DNA of 64,000 nucleotides from Chromobacterium paludis (lineage in GTDB: Bacteria; Pseudomonadota; Gammaproteobacteria; Burkholderiales; Chromobacteriaceae). Positions 49,962-60,011 of this stretch are shown here, one piece after another; the stretch's first letter is position 1; every line of letters starts with the position of its first letter. A program made the position numbers and the translations under genes. Location of the stretch: positions 2,046,001 to 2,110,000 of the forward strand of contig NZ_CP043473.1 of assembly GCF_008275125.1 (NCBI RefSeq), written 5' to 3'. The notes beneath the pieces were generated by a model. That model saw only the letters and a program-made list of their open reading frames with translations. It ran no database searches and was not told the origin of the DNA.

Positions 49962-50143
49962 GCCAACTCCTGCAAAGCCCACCACACCAGGAGCCACAGC
50001 CCGGCCAAGGGCAGCAGCGTCAGCAGCACGCGCTGGCCGGCCGACATCGACAGCAGGCTCAGCGGCGGGCGCAGATTGGATGCCGTGAGGTGCTGATGGC
50101 CGGTATGCGCATGATCATGGCCGTGAGAATGCGTTTGACTCAT
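49958..50143 (-). CDS. Small His-rich single-span membrane protein in the zinc operon
   Basis: A 61-aa protein with seven His in the first 18 residues (positions 5, 7, 9, 11, 13, 16, 18; pattern HxHxHxHxH) and one hydrophobic span at about 39-57. It is joined by ATGA overlaps to the COG0523 gene upstream and znuC downstream, which fixes both ends and argues it is expressed. The His tail should bind Zn(II). I do not recognise a characterised family. It could deliver zinc between the GTPase and the transporter, but that is inference. Confidence 0.8.
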   Translation of the reverse strand: MSQTHSHGHDHAHTGHQHLTASNLRPPLSLLSMSAGQRVLLTLLPLAGLWLLVWWALQELA

Positions 50144-51057
50144 TCCAGACACTCCTTCAGCCAGGCTTCCACCTGCTCGGCCTCAAACGCCGGCGCGATC
50201 AGCTCGAAGCGGCTGTCGCGCCGCCACGACACCTGCGCGGCGCCCCACTGTCCGGCCGCCCAGTTCAGCCACACCCAGCTGTCCAGCACGCGGAACACGC
50301 CCTTGGCGCGCACCAAGCCCGGCACTTTCTTGGGCAAGTCGTCGAAGAAACGGGTCAGCCGCTCGCCATCGAAATTCCGTTCCGGATCGAAGGTCCAGCC
50401 GGCCGCCTGCCATTGGCTGGCGTTATCGGGCAGCACCGCCGGCCGGTAGCGCGGCTTGGCCGCCAGCTCGGCGTCCAGCCAGGACACGTCCAATTGGCCG
50501 TCGCGCACCTCGCCGACCAGCGATTTGGGCGGAAACAGCGCCGCCGCCTGCGCGCGGAAGGCTTCCATGGTCGGGATGTCGGCGGTGTCCATCTTGTTGG
50601 CCACCAGCACGTCGGCGATGGAAATCTGGTCGCGGTACAGCGGCTGGCGATGGTAATCGGGCTGGATGAACTGGCGCGGGTCCACCAGGGTCAGCACGGC
50701 GGCCACCTCCAGCGCCTCGCCCAGCGGCTTGGCGCGCAGTTCGTCGATGACGCCGGCGGCATGGGCCAGGCCGCTGGCTTCGATCAGCAGGCGGTCCGGC
50801 TTTTCGCGGCGCAGCAGCGTGGCCACCGTGGCGGTCATTTGCGGGCCGGCCACGCAGCACAGGCAGCCGCCGGCGATCTCGGCCACGGCCAGCTCGTCGT
50901 TGAGCAGCGCGGCGCCGTCTATGCCCACTTCGCCGAATTCATTGACGATCACCGCCCACTTCTCATGTTGCGGGCGATTGGCGATCAGGTGGCGCAGCGC
51001 GGTGGTCTTGCCCACGCCCAGAAAGCCGGTAAACAGATTGACTTTGGTTTTTTTCAT
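50140..51057 (-). CDS. COG0523 (CobW/ZNG-like) GTP-binding metallochaperone
   Basis: A 305-aa P-loop GTPase. Walker A GFLGVGKTT at residues 11-19, the metal-binding GCLCC motif at 64-68 and the base-specificity motif NKMD near 154 identify the family; the C-terminal CobW_C domain begins near residue 215. In zur-linked subgroups it is thought to supply zinc to client proteins under limitation. It follows zur by 16 bases and overlaps the His-rich gene by ATGA. Confidence 0.92.
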   Translation of the reverse strand: MKKTKVNLFTGFLGVGKTTALRHLIANRPQHEKWAVIVNEFGEVGIDGAALLNDELAVAEIAGGCLCCVAGPQMTATVATLLRREKPDRLLIEASGLAHAAGVIDELRAKPLGEALEVAAVLTLVDPRQFIQPDYHRQPLYRDQISIADVLVANKMDTADIPTMEAFRAQAAALFPPKSLVGEVRDGQLDVSWLDAELAAKPRYRPAVLPDNASQWQAAGWTFDPERNFDGERLTRFFDDLPKKVPGLVRAKGVFRVLDSWVWLNWAAGQWGAAQVSWRRDSRFELIAPAFEAEQVEAWLKECLE

Positions 51058-51073
51058 GGCGGATTTCAGAAAT

Positions 51074-51523
51074 TCAGACGGCGCAGGACTGGCAGCGGCC
51101 GGCCAGCACCAGATTTTGCGGGCTGAGGGCGAAACCGGCCGCCTGCGCCATTTCGCGCAGGCTGGCCAGCCCGTCGGCGGCGTCCACTTCGTTGACGCGG
51201 CCGCATTGCTCGCACACCAGGATCAGGCTTTCATGCTGGCAATCGAAGTGATCGCAGACGATGAAGCCATTGAGCGCGTCCACCTTATGCAACAGGCCGT
51301 GCTCCACTAGGAAATCCAGCGCGCGGTAGACGGTGGGCGGCGCGGCGCTGCCGCGCTGCTGCTGCAGATCCGCCAGCACTTGGTAGGCCTTGACCACGCC
51401 GCGATGGTTCAGCACCAGCTCCAGCACTTGGCGGCGCAAATCGGTGAGTTTGCTGCCGCGCGCCGCGCAATGGCGCTCGGCGGCGGCGAGATAGGTGGAT
51501 CGGTCCATTCGCTTGGCTTGCAT
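51074..51523 (-). CDS. zur: Zinc uptake regulator Zur (Fur family)
   Basis: A 149-aa metalloregulator. PPTVYRALDFLVEHGLLHKVDALNGFIVCDHFDCQHESLILVCEQCGRV matches Zur, with the structural zinc cysteines CxxC (CEQC) and a final CQSC. Three starts are possible: TTG 51541, ATG 51523 and ATG 51508; 51523 is chosen, with limited support. A Zur-box dyad lies just upstream, so the gene is probably autoregulated and heads the zinc operon. Confidence 0.93.
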   Translation of the reverse strand: MQAKRMDRSTYLAAAERHCAARGSKLTDLRRQVLELVLNHRGVVKAYQVLADLQQQRGSAAPPTVYRALDFLVEHGLLHKVDALNGFIVCDHFDCQHESLILVCEQCGRVNEVDAADGLASLREMAQAAGFALSPQNLVLAGRCQSCAV

Positions 51524-51541
51524 GCAGTCTCGATCCGACAA

Positions 51542-51558
51542 ATGTTACTTTATAACAT
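51542..51558. promoter_or_regulatory. Zur box
   Basis: ATGTTA-CTTTA-TAACAT is a perfect 6-bp dyad; the flanking bases extend the match to the known gammaproteobacterial Zur consensus (AAATGTTATAnTATAACATTTC). It is placed 20 bases before the zur ATG. The divergent cytochrome c' gene starts 96 bases on the other side. Confidence 0.85.
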
Positions 51559-51654
51559 CCGACATGCCAACCCTTTACATTTTATGGGTTTTGGCCCTGT
51601 CAACCCTGTGATAGGCTGCCACGTTGTTTTCCATGCCATAGACAGGGGGTTTCG

Positions 51655-52083
51655 ATGAAAAAGATGTTGATGGCTTCGCTGGCTTTGCTGCTCGCGGGCC
51701 AGGCTCTGGCTGCAGACCCGATTGGCCAACGCAAGGAAGTATTCAAGCAATACAAGACCGTGGTTGGCGCCATGGGCAAGGTCGTCAAGGGCGACGCGCC
51801 GTATAACAAGGACGAGTTCGCCAAGCTGGCCGGCCAGTTGGAACAACTGTCCCAGCAGCCCTGGCAATACTTCCCGGCCGGCAGCAACGCAGGCAAGACC
51901 GATGCTCGCCCCGAGATCTGGAGCCGGCCAACAGACTGGCAACAAGCCATAGACAAGCACAAGGCCGCCACCGCCAAGCTCAAGCAGGTGGCGCTGAGCG
52001 GCGATCTGGCGGCGATCAAGGCGCAGTTCGGCGCGACGCAGCAGACCTGCAAGGCCTGTCACAAGGATTTCCGCAAAGATTGA
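51655..52083 (+). CDS. Cytochrome c' (class II), copy 1
   Basis: A 142-aa periplasmic cytochrome. Signal peptide residues 1-20 end ALAAD. The single heme site CKACH is near the C-terminus (about residues 133-137), the class II arrangement in a four-helix bundle. Its family binds NO or CO, or carries electrons. A paralogue follows after 73 bases, with PYNK, AGS and RPEIW segments shared. Confidence 0.92.
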   Translation: MKKMLMASLALLLAGQALAADPIGQRKEVFKQYKTVVGAMGKVVKGDAPYNKDEFAKLAGQLEQLSQQPWQYFPAGSNAGKTDARPEIWSRPTDWQQAIDKHKAATAKLKQVALSGDLAAIKAQFGATQQTCKACHKDFRKD

Positions 52084-52156
52084 GGCGGCTTGCCGCCATG
52101 TCATGACCAGCGGGCGGCCCGCGCCGCCCTTCTCCCACCGTTCTAACCAGGCCGAC

Positions 52157-52600
52157 ATGAACAAGATACTGACCGCGCTGCTGCTGGCAGCCATCGCCAT
52201 CCCCGCCGCCCACGCCGATGACGCGCCGGCAGAGATTCGCACCAAGGCATTCAAGAAAATGCTGCTGCAATCGTTCGAGCCGATGGGCATGACCGTGCGC
52301 GGCCGCGCGCCCTACAACAAGGCGCAGTTCGAACAGCAAGCAGAGGCGCTGAAGACGTTGGCCGCCGAACCGTTCAAACACTTCCCGGCAGGCAGCATCA
52401 GCGACAAGAGCCGCGCCAAGCCAGAAATCTGGAGCCAGCCGGCCAAGTTCCAGGCCGACCGCGACGGCTTCCTGAAGTCAGTCGACAATCTGGCCGAAGT
52501 GGCCAAGAGCGGCGATCTGGCTTCGATCAAGAAGGCCTACGGCCAGGTCGCGCAAAACTGCAAAACCTGTCACGACGCCTTCCGCGGGCCGGAAAGATAA
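52157..52600 (+). CDS. Cytochrome c' (class II), copy 2
   Basis: A 147-aa periplasmic cytochrome with signal peptide ending AAHAD near residue 21 and the heme site CKTCH near residue 136. It is clearly a tandem paralogue of the preceding gene (APYNKAQF, AKPEIWSQPAKFQ, SGDLASIKKAYGQ). The ATG at 52157 is used instead of an upstream start without signal peptide. Transcription ends at the shared terminator. Confidence 0.92.
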   Translation: MNKILTALLLAAIAIPAAHADDAPAEIRTKAFKKMLLQSFEPMGMTVRGRAPYNKAQFEQQAEALKTLAAEPFKHFPAGSISDKSRAKPEIWSQPAKFQADRDGFLKSVDNLAEVAKSGDLASIKKAYGQVAQNCKTCHDAFRGPER

Positions 52601-52623
52601 ACGCCACGCGCGATGAAAACGAA

Positions 52624-52646
52624 AAAGCCGGCGTCATGCCGGCTTT
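52624..52646. terminator. Bidirectional terminator
   Basis: AAAGCCGGC / GCCGGCTTT, a 9-bp stem with a GTCAT loop, between convergent cytochrome c' and cytochrome b genes. Confidence 0.85.
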
Positions 52647-52666
52647 GAGCTTTGCGAGAGCGGCGC

Positions 52667-53323
52667 TCAACGCAGCAGCGTGAAATACAGGCCGCCCGCC
52701 GACAACAGCAAAGCCGCCAACGCCAGCGCGCCATGCGCGAAATGCAGCCGCGGCTTTTCACCCGTCATCCTCTTGTAGCCGGTCAGCATCGGCCCCACCA
52801 GATTCTGTTTCTTCACCACGCGATACAGGATGATCGCGGTCACATGCAGCGCCACCAAGCCCAGCAAACCATTAAACAGCAACTTGTGCGCGCCGGTGAC
52901 GGATTCAGCCAGCCCGCTGTCGATATGCTTGGCCAGCGGGCCGTCATACAGGTAGCTGTCCACGTCCGCGGCGAACAGGCCCGTCAGCACCTGGGCCGCC
53001 AGCGCCAGCAACATCACCACCACCATCCAGCCTCCCAGCGGATTATGCCCCGGCGCCTCGCCTTCCGGCAGCTCACCCCTCAGGTAGCGCAAAATGGTCC
53101 GCGGTCCGCGCACGAAGCTGGCAAAACGCGCGGTCTGACTGCCCACCATGCCCCAGATCAGCCGGAACACCAGCAACGAAGCCAGCGCCACGCCGCAATA
53201 GATATGATATTGCAGCCATTCGCCGCCCTGTTCGGCGCAGAACCACATGGCGCCAAACAAAGCAACCAGACTCCAGTGAAACAAGCGCGTCGGCGCATCC
53301 CATATCTTGACCTGCTGCGTCAT
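52667..53323 (-). CDS. Cytochrome b561-type membrane cytochrome
   Basis: A 218-aa membrane protein with four main spans and a fifth short hydrophobic C-terminal segment. Heme-ligand His candidates are in TRLFHWSLVAL, QYHIYCGVALASLLVFRLIWG, GAHKLLFNGLLGLVALHVTAI. It belongs to the Ni-hydrogenase-type b561 group. Conserved pairing with cytochrome c' genes suggests it exchanges electrons with them. The ATG at 53323 has GGAAGG upstream. Confidence 0.9.
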   Translation of the reverse strand: MTQQVKIWDAPTRLFHWSLVALFGAMWFCAEQGGEWLQYHIYCGVALASLLVFRLIWGMVGSQTARFASFVRGPRTILRYLRGELPEGEAPGHNPLGGWMVVVMLLALAAQVLTGLFAADVDSYLYDGPLAKHIDSGLAESVTGAHKLLFNGLLGLVALHVTAIILYRVVKKQNLVGPMLTGYKRMTGEKPRLHFAHGALALAALLLSAGGLYFTLLR

Positions 53324-53530
53324 CGCCTTCCCTTTCCTGATTTGCCAAGCGTCCATTTTGCCGTAACACCGCCGGCTCCGCCGAATAAAACGGACGATAC
53401 GCCGCCATTTTGCGGCAATTTCGGTTAAGATAAGTTTTCCCACTCCAGCCGGATGCCGCGCGCTCCCGCTGGAGCCGTTTTTTTCCGGCGGCCGCCAGGC
53501 CGCGCAACACCGTGTTGGAGACTCAGTCAA

Positions 53531-54805
53531 ATGTCGCAAACCGCCCTTCTTCAGGATCTGGAGGCCCGTGGCCTCATCGCGCAAACCACCGATATGGCCG
53601 CGCTGCAAGAACTGCTGAACAAGGAAACGGTTACGCTTTATTGCGGCTTCGACCCGACCGCGGACAGCCTGCACATCGGCAGCCTGGTGCCTATTCTGAT
53701 GCTGAAACGCTTCCAGCAGGCCGGCCATCGCCCGGTGGCCCTGGTCGGCGGCGCCACCGGCATGATAGGCGACCCCAGCTTCAAGGCCACCGAGCGCAAG
53801 CTGAACACCCCTGACGTCATCGAAAGCTGGGTGGAGAAAATCCGCAAGCAGGTGGAGCCCTTCCTGTCCTTCGACGGCGACAATGCCGCGCTGATGGCCA
53901 ACAATTACGACTGGTTCGGCAAAATGAACGCGCTTGAGTTCCTGCGCGACATCGGCAAGCACTTCTCGGTCAACGCCATGATCAAGAAGGAAGCGGTGCA
54001 GCAGCGCATCGCCCGCGAAGACCAGGGCATCTCCTACACCGAGTTCTCCTACAGCCTGCTGCAAGGCTATGACTTCGCTGAACTGAACACCCGCCTGGGC
54101 TGCAAGCTGCAGATCGGCGGCTCCGACCAATGGGGCAACATCACCGCCGGCACCGACCTGACCCGCCGCCTGAACCAGACCCAGGTTTACGGCCTGACCA
54201 TGCCGCTGGTGACCAAGGCCGACGGCACCAAGTTCGGCAAGACCGAGTCCGGCACCATCTGGCTGGACGCAAAAAAGACCTCGCCCTACGCCTTCTACCA
54301 GTTCTGGCTGTCCACCGCCGATGCCGACGTGTACAAGTTCCTGCGCTACTTCAGCTTCCTGTCGGTGGACGAGATCGCCACCATCGAAGAAGCAGACAAG
54401 ACCCGCGAAGGCAAGCCGGAAGGCCAGCGCATCCTGGCCGAGCAAGTCACCGAGCTGGTGCACGGCAAAGCCGCGCTGGAAGCGGCGCAGCGCATCACCC
54501 ACAGTCTGTTCAGCAACGACCTGTCCAGCCTGACCGCCGACGACTTCGCCCAGCTGGCGCAGGACGGCCTGCCCACCATCCAGCTGGACAAGCGCGCCAA
54601 CGGCCTGATCGACGCGCTGGCAGCCGGCGGCCTGGCCAAGTCCAAGAGCGAGGCGCGCACCTTCATCCAGAGCGGCGCGGTCAGCGTCAACGGCATCAAG
54701 GTGGACAGCCTGGAACACGCCATCGGCGACGACCAACGCCTGTTCGGCCAGTATTCGCTGCTCAAGCGCGGCAAGAAGCTGTACGCGCTGGTGGACTGGC
54801 AATAA
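53531..54805 (+). CDS. tyrS: Tyrosyl-tRNA synthetase
   Basis: A 424-aa class I aminoacyl-tRNA synthetase. The HIGH motif is SLHIGSLVP near residue 48, and the KMSKS counterpart is KFGKTES near 237; the tyrosine-binding GSDQWGN and the C-terminal S4 domain ([17 protein letters not shown]) are intact. The ATG at 53531 is correct by alignment. Its terminator appears split by the insertion sequence that follows. Confidence 0.96.
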
Positions 54806-54823
54806 GCGGTTGCCGCAAAGCGA

Positions 54824-54846
54824 AAGCCCGTCTTATCGACGGGCTT
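54824..54846 (+). terminator. tyrS terminator stem, interrupted by an insertion sequence
   Basis: AAGCCCGTC / GACGGGCTT with a TTATC loop. The expected T-run is missing here but TTTTTT is found at 56227-56232, directly after the right end of the element. Joining 54845 to 56227 restores a textbook terminator. Confidence 0.8.
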
Positions 54847-54868
54847 AATGTGATGGTCAGCCTGACCT

Positions 54869-54905
54869 AAATGCCTCAGCAGGCGTCAAACCTGCTGAGG
54901 CATTT
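54869..54905 (+). other. Perfect hairpin upstream of the transposase
   Basis: A 15-bp stem AAATGCCTCAGCAGG / CCTGCTGAGGCATTT with a 7-base loop, then CTTCTTCTTC. It lies between the left inverted repeat and the transposase start. It may block read-through from tyrS into the transposase or be part of a structured IS end. Confidence 0.75.
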
Positions 54906-54927
54906 CTTCTTCTTCGGGGAGAGCATC

Positions 54928-55974
54928 ATGGCAACCGTCACACTCATCGGTCTGGATATCGGCAAGCACAGCTTTCATCTGATCGGGCACGACCCGCGCG
55001 GCAACCCGGTCCTCAAGAAGCAGTTCAATCGCAACAGTCTCATCGAATTTCTCGCGAAACAGCCTCCCTGCCGCATCGTGATGGAGGCCTGCTGCGGCGC
55101 GCACTGGCTGGCACGCAAGCTGACGGGCTTCGGTCATACCGTACAACTGATCGCACCGCAGTACATCCGCCCGTTTGTCTTCGGCAACAAGAACGATTTC
55201 ATCGATGCCCAGGCCATCTGCGAGGCGGCTACGCGCCCGACCATGCGCTACGTTGCCGCCAAGAGTGCCGAACAGCAAGCCTTGTCGGCACTGCATCGCC
55301 TGCGGGAATCTCGCATTGCCGAACGAATACAGACCAACAACCAGATCCATGCGCTGCTGCTGGAGTTCGGCATCGCGCTTCCTGTCGGGGTGCGGGGGAT
55401 CACGCAGCTGCCGATGCTGCTGATGGACGAGACCAACGGCTTGCCCGTCAAGGCCCGGCAGATCCTGCAACGCCAGCTGGATCACTACCGTCTGCTCAAG
55501 ACCGAGATCGACGAGCTGGATCACGAGATTGCCACAGAAGCCCGACAGGACGATGTCGCCCGGCGGTTGATGACCATTCCCGGCATCGGTGCGATCACCG
55601 CCAGCCAGTTGTCGGCGGACGCCGGCAATGCCAAGGGCTATGGCAATGCCCGTGACTTTGCGGCATCGCTGGGTCTGGTCCCGCGACAATACTCGACAGG
55701 CGGGAAGTCCAAGCTGCTGGGCATCAGCAAACGCGGTGACAAGAGCCTGCGTCGCCTGCTGGTGCAATGCGCACGGGTGATCATGCAGAACGCGCCGCGC
55801 TGGAAGAGTGCGATGGCAGCGTGGACGGTGGCGCTGATGCAGCGTCGCCACTCGAATATCGTGGCCTGCGCACTGGCCAACAAACTGGCACGGGTCGTGT
55901 GGGCGCTACTCGCCAAAGGCGGCGAGTACCGTCCCCAGGCCCGCGCACTGACTGAAATGCAAACCGCCGGGTAA
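54928..55974 (+). CDS. IS110-family transposase (DEDD type)
   Basis: A 348-aa transposase. The N-terminal RuvC-like domain has IGLDIGKHSFHL (Asp10), an E in MEACCGAHW and NKNDFIDAQAI, giving the DEDD set. A coiled-coil-like middle is followed by Transposase_20, with IPGIGAITASQL and the catalytic-Ser segment RQYSTGGKSKLLG. The frame is complete with no stop or shift, so the element may be active. GGGGAGAG precedes the ATG. Position of IRs and the long 3' non-coding tail favour the IS1111 subgroup. Confidence 0.93.
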   Translation: MATVTLIGLDIGKHSFHLIGHDPRGNPVLKKQFNRNSLIEFLAKQPPCRIVMEACCGAHWLARKLTGFGHTVQLIAPQYIRPFVFGNKNDFIDAQAICEAATRPTMRYVAAKSAEQQALSALHRLRESRIAERIQTNNQIHALLLEFGIALPVGVRGITQLPMLLMDETNGLPVKARQILQRQLDHYRLLKTEIDELDHEIATEARQDDVARRLMTIPGIGAITASQLSADAGNAKGYGNARDFAASLGLVPRQYSTGGKSKLLGISKRGDKSLRRLLVQCARVIMQNAPRWKSAMAAWTVALMQRRHSNIVACALANKLARVVWALLAKGGEYRPQARALTEMQTAG

Positions 55975-56207
55975 ACCCGGCGGCGAGTAGAAGCCTGCTT
56001 TTGCCAAGACAGATACTGATGACGACAACCGGCCCACGGCCTGCAGGATACCCCGATCGTAAAAACAGTCATGACAGACTGAGGGCTTTTTAGGGACTTG
56101 CAGGAGCGGCTCACATCATGGATCGGGCTCTATTGTGCCCATCAAGAATCCGGATAGATTAGAGCAAGCCTACCCCGTCATGATTCATCAGCACGCTGTT
56201 CTTGCAA
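55975..56207 (+). ncRNA. Candidate guide (bridge/seek) RNA region of the insertion sequence
   Basis: About 230 non-coding bases between the transposase stop and the right inverted repeat. In IS1111 elements the guide RNA is reported to lie in this 3' interval. Bases 56053-56065 (CCGATCGTAAAAA) are complementary to the genomic right flank at 56228-56240 except for one G-T, and 56083-56091 (GGGCTTTTT) equals the reconstructed target junction. A hairpin CAGTC-ATGACA-GACTG lies between them. Transcription and exact ends are not known. Confidence 0.5.
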
Positions 56208-56249
56208 AGGTCAGGCTGACCATAGATTTTTTATGATCGGCACGCGCGC

Positions 56250-56810
56250 TCAAGCGACGCTGAACGCCTCTCCGGTGGCGAAGAAATGGCCGCCGGCGAT
56301 GTAATGCAGGCTGCGCCTGGCCGGATCCGCGTCTTCAAAATGCCAGTGGCCGGCGCGGAACACCGCGTCGTCCGCCTGGGCCGCGACAACTTCGCCGATG
56401 AACAAATCGTAGCGCTGCTGATTATGCGGCTCCGGCACCACTCTGCACTCCAGATAGCCGATGCAGCCGGCGACGCGAGGCGCGGCGACTATCCGCGCCG
56501 GCAGCGGCTCCAATCCGCTGGCGGCGAACTTGTCTGCGCCGCGGCCGCTTTCGCTGCCGACTTGCACGACTTGCGCCGCCTGGGCGCGGCACGGCACATT
56601 GAGAATGAATTCGCCGCTGGCTTCGATCAGCTCGCGGCTATAAGTGGACTTGTCTATCACCACCAGCACCTTGGGCGGATCGAAGTCCAGCGGCATCGCC
56701 CAGGCCGCCGCCATCACGTTTTGCCGCCCCTCCGCGGCGCTGCTCACCAGCACCGTCGGGCCATGATTCAACAAGCGATAAGACTTGGCCAACTCCACAT
56801 CCACCAGCAT
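56250..56810 (-). CDS. Flavin reductase family protein (FMN-binding)
   Basis: A 186-aa split-barrel flavoprotein of the flavin reductase-like/DIM6 group. LLNHGPTVLVSSAAEGRQNVMAAAWAMPLDFDPPKVLVVIDKSTYSRELIEASGEFILNVP is the typical FMN-binding start. It may reduce flavin for a monooxygenase or act as a reductase on small molecules; no partner gene is nearby. The gene is convergent with the insertion sequence. Confidence 0.88.
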   Translation of the reverse strand: MLVDVELAKSYRLLNHGPTVLVSSAAEGRQNVMAAAWAMPLDFDPPKVLVVIDKSTYSRELIEASGEFILNVPCRAQAAQVVQVGSESGRGADKFAASGLEPLPARIVAAPRVAGCIGYLECRVVPEPHNQQRYDLFIGEVVAAQADDAVFRAGHWHFEDADPARRSLHYIAGGHFFATGEAFSVA

Positions 56811-56853
56811 GTCATCGTCTTTCTGGACAAAGACGCCATTCTAGCAGCCGCGC

Positions 56854-57147
56854 TCAATGGGTCGCGACCACGCCAAGGTGACACAGCCGGGTTTGCAAGC
56901 TGCGATCCCTAGCCAGAACGTCCTCGAACAGCTTGCTGCGCGCACAGATGTGATAGCCATAGCGCCAGTCGCGCACCAGATCGAGGCCAATTTCGAAATA
57001 CTCCGCATCCAGCGTGGCCAGGCTCCTGAGATCAAACGGGCGTCCCAGCTGCAGGTTCACCAACAACTCGATCAACACATCAAGCTGTTCCGGCGACTCA
57101 TTGCGTTCCAGCAACAGTCGCATTTTCTTGGCTGCGTTCACGTCCAT
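56854..57147 (-). CDS. Hypothetical protein
   Basis: A 97-aa soluble helical protein (MDVNAAKKMRLLLERNESPEQLDVLIELLV...). The family is not recognised. The start at 57147 is chosen because sequence further upstream is AT-rich and codes for a hydrophobic, unlikely peptide; the ribosome-binding site is poor. The AT-rich upstream 57150-57230 may be its promoter. It has no obvious domain; His/Cys near the C-terminus (YHICARSK, LCHLGVVATH) are not a known motif. Confidence 0.6.
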   Translation of the reverse strand: MDVNAAKKMRLLLERNESPEQLDVLIELLVNLQLGRPFDLRSLATLDAEYFEIGLDLVRDWRYGYHICARSKLFEDVLARDRSLQTRLCHLGVVATH

Positions 57148-57222
57148 TCCAAAAATATAAATGACATAAAAACGTAGCATGAAACCAATATTTTGGTAAC
57201 TGATTTTTAGCGCTGACGATAT

Positions 57223-57253
57223 AAAAAAAGGCCCGGGCGAATTGCGCCGGGCC
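57223..57253 (-). terminator. Terminator downstream of the DUF3443 gene
   Basis: GGCCCGG / CCGGGCC stem with a 10-base loop; the minus strand continues with a run of T (A run at 57223-57229). It lies 97 bases after the DUF3443 stop. Confidence 0.75.
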
Positions 57254-57349
57254 AGTTTGCCTATCCTCAAGCATCAAGACAGAGGAGATGTCATCGTGAT
57301 GACTATCACTTTATAGATTAGTGCTTGCTGCGCCGCAAGATCCTTCCCG

Positions 57350-58582
57350 TCAGAAAATATACATGGCGCCGCTGCCCAAGGGATTGGAAGCCCCTTCCAG
57401 GCCGATAAACACGCTACGGCCATAGAAAAACGGCAAACCCCAATCAAAATATCCCCCAAAGCTGCTTCCCATCGGCGCGCCTATGCTGGGAAAGGCTGCG
57501 TAGCTATTGGTAGTGAGCACCGTCGCATTGATCAGGCTGAAGTTGATCACGCTGCTGCTGCCATTGCTGGCCGACAACTGCGCGCTCAAATTCAGGGTTT
57601 GACCATTTGCCAGGGCTGGGCAATACCAGGACGCCCCATACAAGGTGCAGGTGGTGATGGCGCCGTCGTCGAAATACAGCAGGTTCGAACCGCTATCCAG
57701 GAAACTGGGATAGGTTTGTCCCTTGTACGTCGTCGTGATCGTGTAACCGTCGCTGGACACGGGATAGGCCTTGGCCGCCGCGGGGAGCGCGTTATTGGAC
57801 TGCGTGCCGATGCCGAAAGTCAGCGTGCCCTGGACCGACGCCGCGCCATAAGCATCCACGCTGGGCAGCTGCAGCATCACGCCATTATTGTCTCCGGAAA
57901 ACGACGCCACCGGGTTGCTGACCTGCTGCGCGACAGGCACCACGCCAGGCAGGCAACTCTGGCCGCTGCACAGATAGTAGAAGCCGTTGCTGCTGACATT
58001 GGCGCAGATACTGCCGCAATCCTGCCGATCCAGGCCGACGCCCAGGATGCCCTTGGCGCCCAAACCGGACAGATTGCCTTCATTGCTGCCCGATCCGCTG
58101 CAGGCGGCAGGCACGGCATAGGGAAGCGAAGCGTCCGCCACCACCTGCATCGGCAGCGCACTGGCCAGTTTACCGCCGATTTTGACGTCGGCCGCGCTGA
58201 CCGCCCCCCAGGTATAGCCGTCTGCGAACTGAGCGCACTCCATGACCTGCCGGCCATTGATGGATTCAATGGCCAAAGCGTTCTGCAAGGTCCCGCCCAG
58301 GGCCGATGCCAGCACCCGCAGCCCGCTGGAGCCGGTATCCACCAGCACGTGATCTATCGTGGAACAGGTGGATGTGCCGGGCGCGCACACCGTGACCGTC
58401 ACATACGGCAGATTCAGCTGCCCCGTCGCCCCGCTAGGCCCCGTATCCACGACCATTGCGACACTGTTGTCGTCGCTGCTGCCGCCGCTGCCGCTTGAGA
58501 TCGTTCCGGCGCCTCCGCCGCCCCCACCGCATCCGCACAACAAAACCGCGACAAAACCCAGCCCCATGAGCATTGTTCTCAT
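57350..58582 (-). CDS. DUF3443 lipoprotein with two aspartic-protease-like motifs
   Basis: A 410-aa exported protein. The lipobox LCGC gives Cys18 as the lipidated residue, followed by a Gly/Ser linker. DTGSSGLRV starts at Asp82 and DSGSNLLYF at Asp296, spaced as the two active-site motifs of pepsin-like proteases, and DWGLPFFYGRSVFIGLEG near the end resembles the last pepsin strand. Many Cys suggest disulfides. It matches DUF3443 of betaproteobacteria. A pepsin fold and protease activity are inferred. It lies 10 bases after the DUF2844 gene. Confidence 0.85.
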   Translation of the reverse strand: MRTMLMGLGFVAVLLCGCGGGGGGAGTISSGSGGSSDDNSVAMVVDTGPSGATGQLNLPYVTVTVCAPGTSTCSTIDHVLVDTGSSGLRVLASALGGTLQNALAIESINGRQVMECAQFADGYTWGAVSAADVKIGGKLASALPMQVVADASLPYAVPAACSGSGSNEGNLSGLGAKGILGVGLDRQDCGSICANVSSNGFYYLCSGQSCLPGVVPVAQQVSNPVASFSGDNNGVMLQLPSVDAYGAASVQGTLTFGIGTQSNNALPAAAKAYPVSSDGYTITTTYKGQTYPSFLDSGSNLLYFDDGAITTCTLYGASWYCPALANGQTLNLSAQLSASNGSSSVINFSLINATVLTTNSYAAFPSIGAPMGSSFGGYFDWGLPFFYGRSVFIGLEGASNPLGSGAMYIF

Positions 58583-58592
58583 CTTCGGCCCC

Positions 58593-59039
58593 TTATTTCA
58601 GCTGATCCGGCGTCACGCCCGCCGGCAACAAGGCTGCATCGTAGGCCAAGCCCTGGAAAGCTCCCATGCGGCCATAGGAATGCACGAAAAAGCTGCCCAC
58701 CTGCCCTCGCATCACATTGAGGCCGCTGCGATTTTGACGCTGGGCGCGCTGAAAGGCCGGGAAGTAGTCTCCCAGCCACTGAGACAGGTTGGGATGGCTT
58801 TTGCCGCGCCAAGCAACGGCGAACACCGTGCCGTCGGCGGCGGCGTATTGTTTGATTTGACGATCGGCCTCATCCACATCCAGGCGCACGGAGTACGCTG
58901 CTGCGGCAGCCGGACGCATGGCCAAAATGGCTTGAGAAGAGCGGTTTGCGACAGGCGTCTGCAACTTCTGGCCCAGCGCGGCATGCGCCGCCGGAACCGC
59001 AAGCGCCAGCAAGAACGTGATGCGGAAGGATGGCTTCAT
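58593..59039 (-). CDS. DUF2844 exported protein
   Basis: A 148-aa protein with signal peptide (TFLLALAVPAAHA, cleavage near residue 20). The body contains IKQYAAADGTVFAVAWRGKSHPNLSQWLGDYFPAF and GLNVMRGQVGSFFVHSYGRMGAF, the DUF2844 pattern. The pair DUF2844-DUF3443 is common in betaproteobacteria, which suggests a shared, undescribed exported function. The two genes are 10 bases apart and surely co-transcribed. Confidence 0.85.
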   Translation of the reverse strand: MKPSFRITFLLALAVPAAHAALGQKLQTPVANRSSQAILAMRPAAAAAYSVRLDVDEADRQIKQYAAADGTVFAVAWRGKSHPNLSQWLGDYFPAFQRAQRQNRSGLNVMRGQVGSFFVHSYGRMGAFQGLAYDAALLPAGVTPDQLK

Positions 59040-59154
59040 CGTGACCCCTTTTCAGACAGATTGAGGGTGATTTCATTTATCCTGTTGCCTACATCTTCCC
59101 TACACTTTCAGCATAATAGATGCGCGCAGCCTCGCCGCATTTTGATGCGCGATG

Positions 59155-59184
59155 AAAAAAAAGCGGGAGGCTTTCGCCTCCCGC
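59155..59184 (-). terminator. Terminator of the Rossmann-protein gene
   Basis: GCGGGAGG / CCTCCCGC stem with a CTTTCG-type loop and eight T on the minus strand, 54 bases after the stop. Confidence 0.87.
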
Positions 59185-59237
59185 ATCTCCTCACTCGGCT
59201 GCTCAGCTTGGCTGAACGGCCGCACAGCTACAACACT

Positions 59238-59612
59238 TCAATACGCCAGCTCGTCATGCCGGGTTTCCACCCAGTGCCCGGCGCCCAGCGACAGCATCAA
59301 CAGTGCCACGCGCTCATGCACGATGACCGTGTGCGCATTGCCGGAAAACTGCATGTAACGGCGCAGATCCTCGCGCACCTTGCGCGAGCCCGTCACGTCG
59401 ATGATGATGTCGACCCGGCTGCCCTGCTCGGCAATCTCGATAAAATTATCGGTCACCGGCACGCCCTTTTCCTTGGCCAACAACACGCCGGGCAACTGCA
59501 GGTTCAGATCCGCCACGCCCACCATCTCGACGAATGGCGCATCCAGCAGTTGCTTCAGCAAGGGCGTGCCGGTTTCGCCCACGCCCACCATGCCGATCCT
59601 GAACTTTTGCAT
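59238..59612 (-). CDS. Stand-alone NAD(P)-binding Rossmann-fold protein
   Basis: A 124-aa protein consisting of one dinucleotide-binding domain: FRIGMVGVGETGTPLLKQLL (GxGxxG), an acidic second strand (VGVADLNLQLPG) and VDIIIDVTGSRKVREDL. The catalytic domain of oxidoreductases such as acetaldehyde or homoserine dehydrogenases is absent. It ends with VETRHDELAY. The ATG at 59612 fits; the longer frame lacks a ribosome-binding site. Similar short proteins are conserved hypotheticals; a NAD-responsive sensor or metabolite chaperone is possible but unproven. Confidence 0.82.
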   Translation of the reverse strand: MQKFRIGMVGVGETGTPLLKQLLDAPFVEMVGVADLNLQLPGVLLAKEKGVPVTDNFIEIAEQGSRVDIIIDVTGSRKVREDLRRYMQFSGNAHTVIVHERVALLMLSLGAGHWVETRHDELAY

Positions 59613-59718
59613 TTTTACCCGCCTCCAGTATGAAACATACACATAACCACGGTTACTGTATGACTACTCAAAATCCGGGGTATTGAGGCAAATCAAACGA
59701 AAAGAAATACAAAAGAAA

Positions 59719-59740
59719 CGGCCCGGCACAGGCCGGGCCT
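59719..59740 (-). terminator. Terminator of the small acidic gene
   Basis: GGCCCGGC / GCCGGGCC stem with an ACAG loop, followed on the minus strand by GTTTCTTTTG, 20 bases after the stop at 59760. Confidence 0.8.
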
Positions 59741-59759
59741 TGATGGAAAATTGCTTGCT

Positions 59760-60011
59760 TCAATGCAGATTGTGCTGGGACAGGAAACGCAGATAGCCCA
59801 GCCCCTCCAGCCAGAAGCCGCCATCCGCCAGCGGCGTGGCATCGGTCAGATCCGCCACCGTCAGCACCAGTTCCTGGCCATCCAGATTGGCTTCCAACAC
59901 CACGTCGTCATCGTCGGAAAATTCCTCCGACACCGAATGGAAGTCCGGCTTGACGAATTGATTGTTGACCTGGATGTAGTCGGACTCATTCAGCAAACGC
60001 AGGATGTTCAT
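59760..60011 (-). CDS. Small acidic hypothetical protein
   Basis: An 83-aa soluble protein with an acidic stretch (SEEFSDDDDVVLEANLDG) followed by a compact alternating segment (QELVLTVADLTDATPLADGGFWLEGLGYLRFL). The AAGGAGGT ribosome-binding site before the ATG at 60011 is the strongest in the window, so it is probably well expressed. It has its own terminator. The family is not recognised. Confidence 0.78.
   Translation of the reverse strand: MNILRLLNESDYIQVNNQFVKPDFHSVSEEFSDDDDVVLEANLDGQELVLTVADLTDATPLADGGFWLEGLGYLRFLSQHNLH

Follow-up and report, generated by a model that had tools for sequence, protein, structure and literature searches.

The locus considered here raises the question of what the long non-coding 3' end of a mobile element does, and of how that element finds its place in the chromosome. 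The window, a stretch of 64,000 nucleotides of the Chromobacterium paludis genome, had been read beforehand from its letters alone, and this sequence-only reading placed a candidate guide RNA with target-like stretches at 55975-56245, a span that does cover the non-coding end, the RNA itself being better taken as 56018-56171. As far as comparison of sequences can tell, that interpretation was largely right; a second loop (for the donor), terminators as the target and a terminator within the element itself were not foreseen in it. The element belongs to the IS1111 group and is very probably moved by a DEDD recombinase together with an RNA of its 3' end that has a target loop and a donor loop, its copies landing at terminators. 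Its main parts are:

54847-56226, plus strand: insertion sequence, IS1111 group of the IS110 family, 1380 bp, with operational ends AATGTGA...TAGA
54928-55974, plus strand: transposase/recombinase gene, 348 amino acids, with DEDD_Tnp_IS110 and Transposase_20 domains
54853-54868, plus strand: left subterminal inverted repeat ATGGTCAGCCTGACCT, a perfect 16-bp repeat with 56208-56223
56208-56223, plus strand: right subterminal inverted repeat AGGTCAGGCTGACCAT, a perfect 16-bp repeat with 54853-54868

The family membership of the recombinase is not in doubt: PF01548 and PF02371 score 3.6e-18 and 8.2e-24, Transposase_20 being C-terminal, and the translation contains GLVPRQYSTG, which agrees with the motif GL-P----S(t)G given for IS1111 in the excerpted text of PMC11187229. 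The features by which the IS1111 group is recognised are present, namely asymmetric extensions beyond the inverted repeats (about 6-7 bp on the left and 3-4 bp on the right), a non-coding region that is longer 3' of the gene (252 bases) than upstream of it (81), a conserved target, a fixed orientation and RNA guides with the top-strand match 5' of the bottom-strand match. The ends are placed to within one T, and a target-site duplication of one or two T at the T-run of the junction is compatible with the sequences. Eight full copies and one left-end fragment are found in the 4.28-Mb one-contig genome. Solo left ends (L018, L037, L047), one in C. paludis and examples of 75 bp and 26 bp in relatives, are perhaps remnants of lost copies.

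The 252 bases downstream of the gene contain the following predicted features:

56018-56171, plus strand: predicted bridge or seek RNA of about 154 nt with target loop and donor loop (alignment, fold and covariance model)
56040-56104, plus strand: predicted target-binding stem-loop, stem 56040-56047 with 56097-56104
56056-56065, plus strand: predicted right target guide ATCGTAAAAA, antisense to the right flank (variable window, guide-flank covariation)
56066-56081, plus strand: predicted apical hairpin CAGTC/GACTG separating the two target guides (fold)
56082-56091, plus strand: predicted left target guide AGGGCTTTTT, sense to the left flank and core (variable window, guide-flank covariation)

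Twelve sequences, that of the window included, align over 156 columns; their scaffold is conserved, and what varies are two 10-nt windows, 56056-56065 and 56082-56091, on the opposite strands of one internal loop. The common fold of these twelve has compensatory double changes at 7 of 39 predicted pairs; the stability of the single-sequence fold is ordinary (z -0.60 for 154 nt and -1.26 for 82 nt). A covariance model of the alignment finds the RNA, at E <=1e-6, in 10 of 369 genomes sampled from the class and 5 of 399 sampled from the order (both counts including the window's own genome), and at E 0.01 it gives 42 matches over 49 sources, by which the RNA reaches other families. The same 154-nt RNA is present in all eight full copies of the C. 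paludis genome. Comparison shows the RNA to be conserved; an Rfam scan of 50000-60000 gave no match at the gathering score, and a search of the RNA region against phages gave none.

The sequence-only reading had noted that 56053-56065 (CCGATCGTAAAAA) is complementary to the right flank at 56228-56240 (TTTTTATGATCGG), that 56083-56091 (GGGCTTTTT) is identical to the joined junction GGGCTT|TTTTTT, and that a hairpin CAGTC...GACTG lies between the two. We could confirm the 12 Watson-Crick pairs of 13 plus one G-T pair, the identity across the junction and the hairpin, which stands at 56066-56081. The right guide is narrower than had been claimed: 56056-56065 vary among relatives, and 56053-56055 (CCG) belong to the scaffold, being C[C/T]G with the outer two bases invariant in the 12 aligned sequences, so the whole 13-base match was dropped as a guide in favour of its last ten bases. 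Of the two checks proposed with that reading, the search for a conserved structure led to the compensatory changes and to the recovery of the RNA in other families by the covariance model, and the comparison of guides with flanks showed that they vary together between relatives, which supports the claim that one loop holds an antisense right guide and a sense left guide.

Over 46 insertions with 32 distinct guide pairs, right guides matched their own flanks at 6.59 of 10 bases, against 4.37+-0.23 for shuffled guides, and where a left flank was available (21 pairs) left guides matched at 5.75 of 8 against 2.85+-0.29, each value being reached in 0 of 20,000 shuffles, which leave the same four registers open to own and shuffled right guides and take no account of kinship among elements. 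Within the close clade only, the right value is 7.13 against 5.82 (n=14, 0/20,000) and the left 5.71 against 4.58 (n=7, 85/20,000). The own guide ranked first, ties included, in 15/32 cases on the right and 17/21 on the left. The test left out L078 and L081 (both without right end), L074 (a duplicate of L140) and the spurious left flank of L136; the left flanks of L117, L021 and L022 were positioned manually, while L137 took part with a shortened one.

Individual cases illustrate how guide and flank go together. The Vogesella element has guide AACCTTTTT at flank AACCTT|TTTTTC, that of G009 has GGGCGTTTT at flanks GGCCGT and TGGCGT, that of G046 has GGGTTTTTT at GGGTTT, and an Aeromonas plasmid carries right guide TTCGCTTTG beside flank TTGGCTTTG. 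L109 and L108, which occupy one and the same site in two congeneric species, differ by a single change that guide and flank share (TTGTGG/TTGTAG), and copies with different guide pairs occur in one genome, both in G034 (L032 and L109 vs L107) and in G043 (L033 vs L108). For four elements examined after the test, own right scores of 9, 7, 8 and 7 were reached by 0, 2, 2 and 3 of 33 foreign guides, and own left scores of 4, 6, 6 and 7 by 5, 0, 0 and 1 of 30. Among distant elements, L147 (Salmonella plasmid), L146 (Pseudomonas veronii plasmid) and L135/L138 (G656) have left flanks GGGCTT or GGGTT and matching guides.

Some fits are poor: on the right, L066 scores 2 of 10, L121 scores 3 (its hairpin misaligned), L063, L072 and L118 score 4, and L032, L014 and L017 score 5, the last two being copies within the C. 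paludis genome; on the left, L144 scores 4/8, which 5 of 30 foreign guides reach. The right-guide register shifts by up to 2 nt, chiefly at T-run targets. The guides are constant within the C. paludis genome, and so is the targeted motif GGGCTT|TTTT, as guidance predicts. There the 10-nt right guide scores 9 at the window copy and 8, 6, 6, 6, 6, 5 and 5 at the other seven; the eight right flanks have TTTT in common and diverge beyond it, and past the T-run a strong right match occurs only in the window copy and one other of the eight.

The site itself is composed of:

54824-54846, plus strand: left target half, hairpin AAGCCCGTC..GACGGGCTT from the terminator of the host gene tyrS, its 9-bp stem ending at the boundary
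56227-56232, plus strand: right target half, T-tract that the insertion separates from the host terminator hairpin, identified by flank comparison
Natural target sequence: GGGCTTTTTT

Uninterrupted tyrS ends of the same genus read GGGCTTTTT in 7 of the 13 cases listed (for example GGACGGGCTTTTTT), the other six being different terminator sequences, and this places the element between the hairpin and the T-tract. Throughout the C. paludis genome, the left flank is a hairpin closing in GGGCTT at 9/9 insertions (at L008 with G-T pairs) and the right flank starts with TTTT at 8/8 insertions that have a right end. In the wider set, solo left ends included, a GC-rich hairpin adjoins 22 of 28 distinct left flanks, compared with 526/5000 random positions and 431/1903 element-free positions after GGCTT. 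The pattern GCCC-N(3-20)-GGGCTTTT has 96 matches in the genome (a single hairpin being at times read more than once, in nested form or on the opposite strand), whereas the reversed control has 2, and GGGCTTTTT occurs 123 times, 8 of these being guides inside element copies, against 22; with such counts, the left guide spells a frequent terminator ending. Among the five of the nine insertions for which gene orientation could be read, upstream Pfam-matched genes point at the element in L003, L006 and L007, ending 39-65 bases off, and so does tyrS; at L004 the nearest upstream Pfam gene is oriented away from it.

Could the likeness of guides and flanks have arisen in another way? The sequence-only reading had allowed that the A-run/T-run part might be chance, and one may suppose more broadly that complementarity arose by accident in a low-complexity A/T-run, the non-coding end being a 3' UTR or without a role. 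The match is indeed partly A-run against T-run, and the 9-nt sense word across the middle is reached by 23/2000 random 24-mers, so that the left match on its own is modest; the right match clearly exceeds chance, an equal complement in the non-coding end being found for just 1 of 2000 random window positions and for none of the 238 that begin with TTTT. The T-run, moreover, is itself the target, the T-tract of intrinsic terminators. Chance predicts no guide-flank covariation, and on its presence over 32 guide pairs we rejected pure chance, which we hold to be extremely improbable. It is also very unlikely, if somewhat less so, that the folded terminator hairpin is what is recognised and that the guides resemble the site merely because terminator sequences are common. 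Such recognition would account for the hairpins at all nine insertions of the C. paludis genome and has a parallel in the group IIC introns, which insert downstream of Rho-independent terminators according to the excerpts of PMC3522654; against it, guides follow the particular flank sequence of each relative, the same guide rule holds in relatives with other targets, and the left guides of L145 and L147 match without a detectable hairpin (L147, with its GGGCTT flank, by eye). Hairpin recognition alone was rejected on these grounds.

A guide RNA that reads the target remains the preferred explanation, and its 3' half has two further stretches, which would form the donor loop:

56111-56116, plus strand: predicted right donor guide TCACAT, antisense to ATGTGA of the left end (covariation)
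56155-56160, plus strand: predicted left donor guide TAGA with core TT, sense to the right end and core (covariation)

The right donor guide covaries with the left end, the own pairing being reached in 21/20,000 shuffles over 9 distinct pairs, and a 7-base test of the left donor guide over 25 pairs gives 5.40 against 4.07+-0.20 (0/20,000). Position by position, the left donor guide agrees with the right end in 25/29 elements at position 3 (expected 10.0), in 24/29 against 16.7 at position 5 and in 23/29 against 13.2 at position 6; position 2 is weak (25 against 22.7, 198/5000 shuffles), as is position 7 (343/5000), positions 8-10 are without signal, and positions 1 and 4 are near-invariant and hence uninformative. 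Since they border on the target, positions 5-6 of the right end support a shared core, not the element alone. In the comparisons by position and of the core, L122 (misread by the pattern), L078 (unclear) and L072 (read differently in the 7-base test) were counted as misses, and for L141 the donor guide was assigned by hand.

Donor guide and left target guide have the same core dinucleotide in 24 of 33 elements, against 11.9+-1.9 (0/20,000), and still in 15 of 24 against 5.5+-1.7 (0/20,000) when similar elements are collapsed. Besides these two left guides, the right target guides show it close to their start when inspected by eye; in the right donor guide it was not seen. At the left junction of 21 elements, the first core base follows the guide in 20 and the second is A in 19 whatever the guide, and the right-junction core is that of the donor guide in 24/32. 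This pattern fits a 7-base left extension (AATGTGA) with a crossover inside the core, which would account for the constant A at least in part.

Pairing of a second loop with the element's own ends, the mark of a bispecific bridge RNA, is supported here by covariation only. A seekRNA that reads the target only would have as its functional part the target loop of about 82 nt, the protein reading the ends through the inverted repeats and the donor-like stretches being scaffold. The main RNA species of ISEc11 is 82 nt and the smaller RNA is enough for transposition, according to the excerpts of PMC11187229, the element of the window has a 16-bp inverted repeat, and the donor test was not significant when only the first four bases, those inside the element, were used (1375/20,000). 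A pure scaffold would, however, neither covary with the ends at positions 3, 5 and 6 nor carry the core of the target guide, and the antisense donor side also covaries; donor-guide covariation and a shared core are both predicted by a bridge RNA and not by a target-only RNA. We consider the target-only alternative unlikely, and the comparison suggests a two-sided bridge RNA.

The left end of the element carries one more feature:

54869-54915, plus strand: terminator-like hairpin of 15 pairs with T-rich tail CTTCTTCTTC, upstream of the transposase gene

This hairpin reads AAATGCCTCAGCAGG-CGTCAAA-CCTGCTGAGGCATTT, then CTTCTTCTTC; twelve aligned left ends have double compensatory changes in 6/14 pairs and, by eye, a T-rich tail 3' of it. 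Because insertion parts the host hairpin from its T-tract, the left-end hairpin plausibly restores termination, and it probably stands in for the broken host terminator; plausibly it would also shield the transposase gene from host transcription. The left ends of L015, L016 and L017 vary by +/-3 bases in the CTT repeat that the terminator tail has downstream of the hairpin, ahead of the start codon. At the other end (56208-56232), the right inverted repeat has a short palindrome GGTCAGGCTGACC, next to which an insertion brings the host T-tract, and which was terminator-like in a scan; absent from some relatives, the palindrome might, with the T-tract, end the element's own transcript.

Taken together, we infer a scheme in which the RNA would be transcribed from the 3' end of the element and bound by the DEDD recombinase acting with it. 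The 5' strand of the target loop (56056-56065) would pair on the right of the insertion point, with the top strand, and the 3' strand (56082-56091) on its left, with the bottom strand; the donor loop would read the ends joined in a circular intermediate, its TCACAT contacting the left end, and its TAGATT both the right end and the core dinucleotide. With a left guide that spells the common terminator end GGGCTTTTT, copies would land between hairpin and T-tract at gene ends, where the element's own left-end hairpin (54869-54915) would restore termination. It seems rather probable, with less assurance than for the element itself, that the lineage aims such a two-loop bridge RNA at terminators generally, carries a replacement terminator, and re-aims through the two 10-nt windows even within one genome. 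If so, terminators would be a near-neutral niche with many dozens of sites per genome, each insertion swapping one terminator for another; an element that homes on terminators and seemingly mends them would follow an unusual route to spare its host, and terminators are possibly useful landing sites for programmable insertion.

The kind of system is already known; in the portions of the open-access full-text literature searched, neither terminators as a target of IS110 or IS1111 elements nor a carried terminator was found. IS5075, of the IS1111 group (L144), is alike in that the covariance model finds its RNA and its right guide matches 9/10 of the right flank, and unlike in that its left guide matches only 4/8 in that copy. 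It reportedly targets the terminal inverted repeats of the Tn21 family. The group IIC introns, as described in the excerpts of PMC3522654, also insert at intrinsic terminators by short RNA-DNA pairing and differ in being group II ribozyme elements, the Rfam scan of 50000-60000 giving no ribozyme match at the site in the window. With the bridge RNA of IS621, of the IS110 group, the predicted RNA has in common a target loop and donor stretches with a shared core dinucleotide; unlike what the excerpts of PMC11208160 describe, it lies in the right end, not the left, the element has long inverted repeats, and the right donor guide has no visible core. The IS1111 seekRNA elements ISEc11, ISPa11, ISKpn4 and ISPst6, in the excerpts of PMC11187229, share the recombinase architecture, the subterminal inverted repeats, the 3' non-coding region, a similar long RNA (154 nt in ISEc11) and the published guide order, antisense-right (top strand) 5' of sense-left (bottom strand); the element of the window differs from them by its target, a hairpin/T-tract junction, and by the donor-guide covariation of its 3' half, not found in those excerpts. 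Among the relatives assembled here, IS1111 RNAs have been re-aimed in nature and each comes with its target, so that comparing them gives access to the length, register and core of the guides, and the donor-loop covariation test is an addition that bears on whether IS1111 elements use a seekRNA, which reads the target only, or a bridge RNA, which reads both partners.
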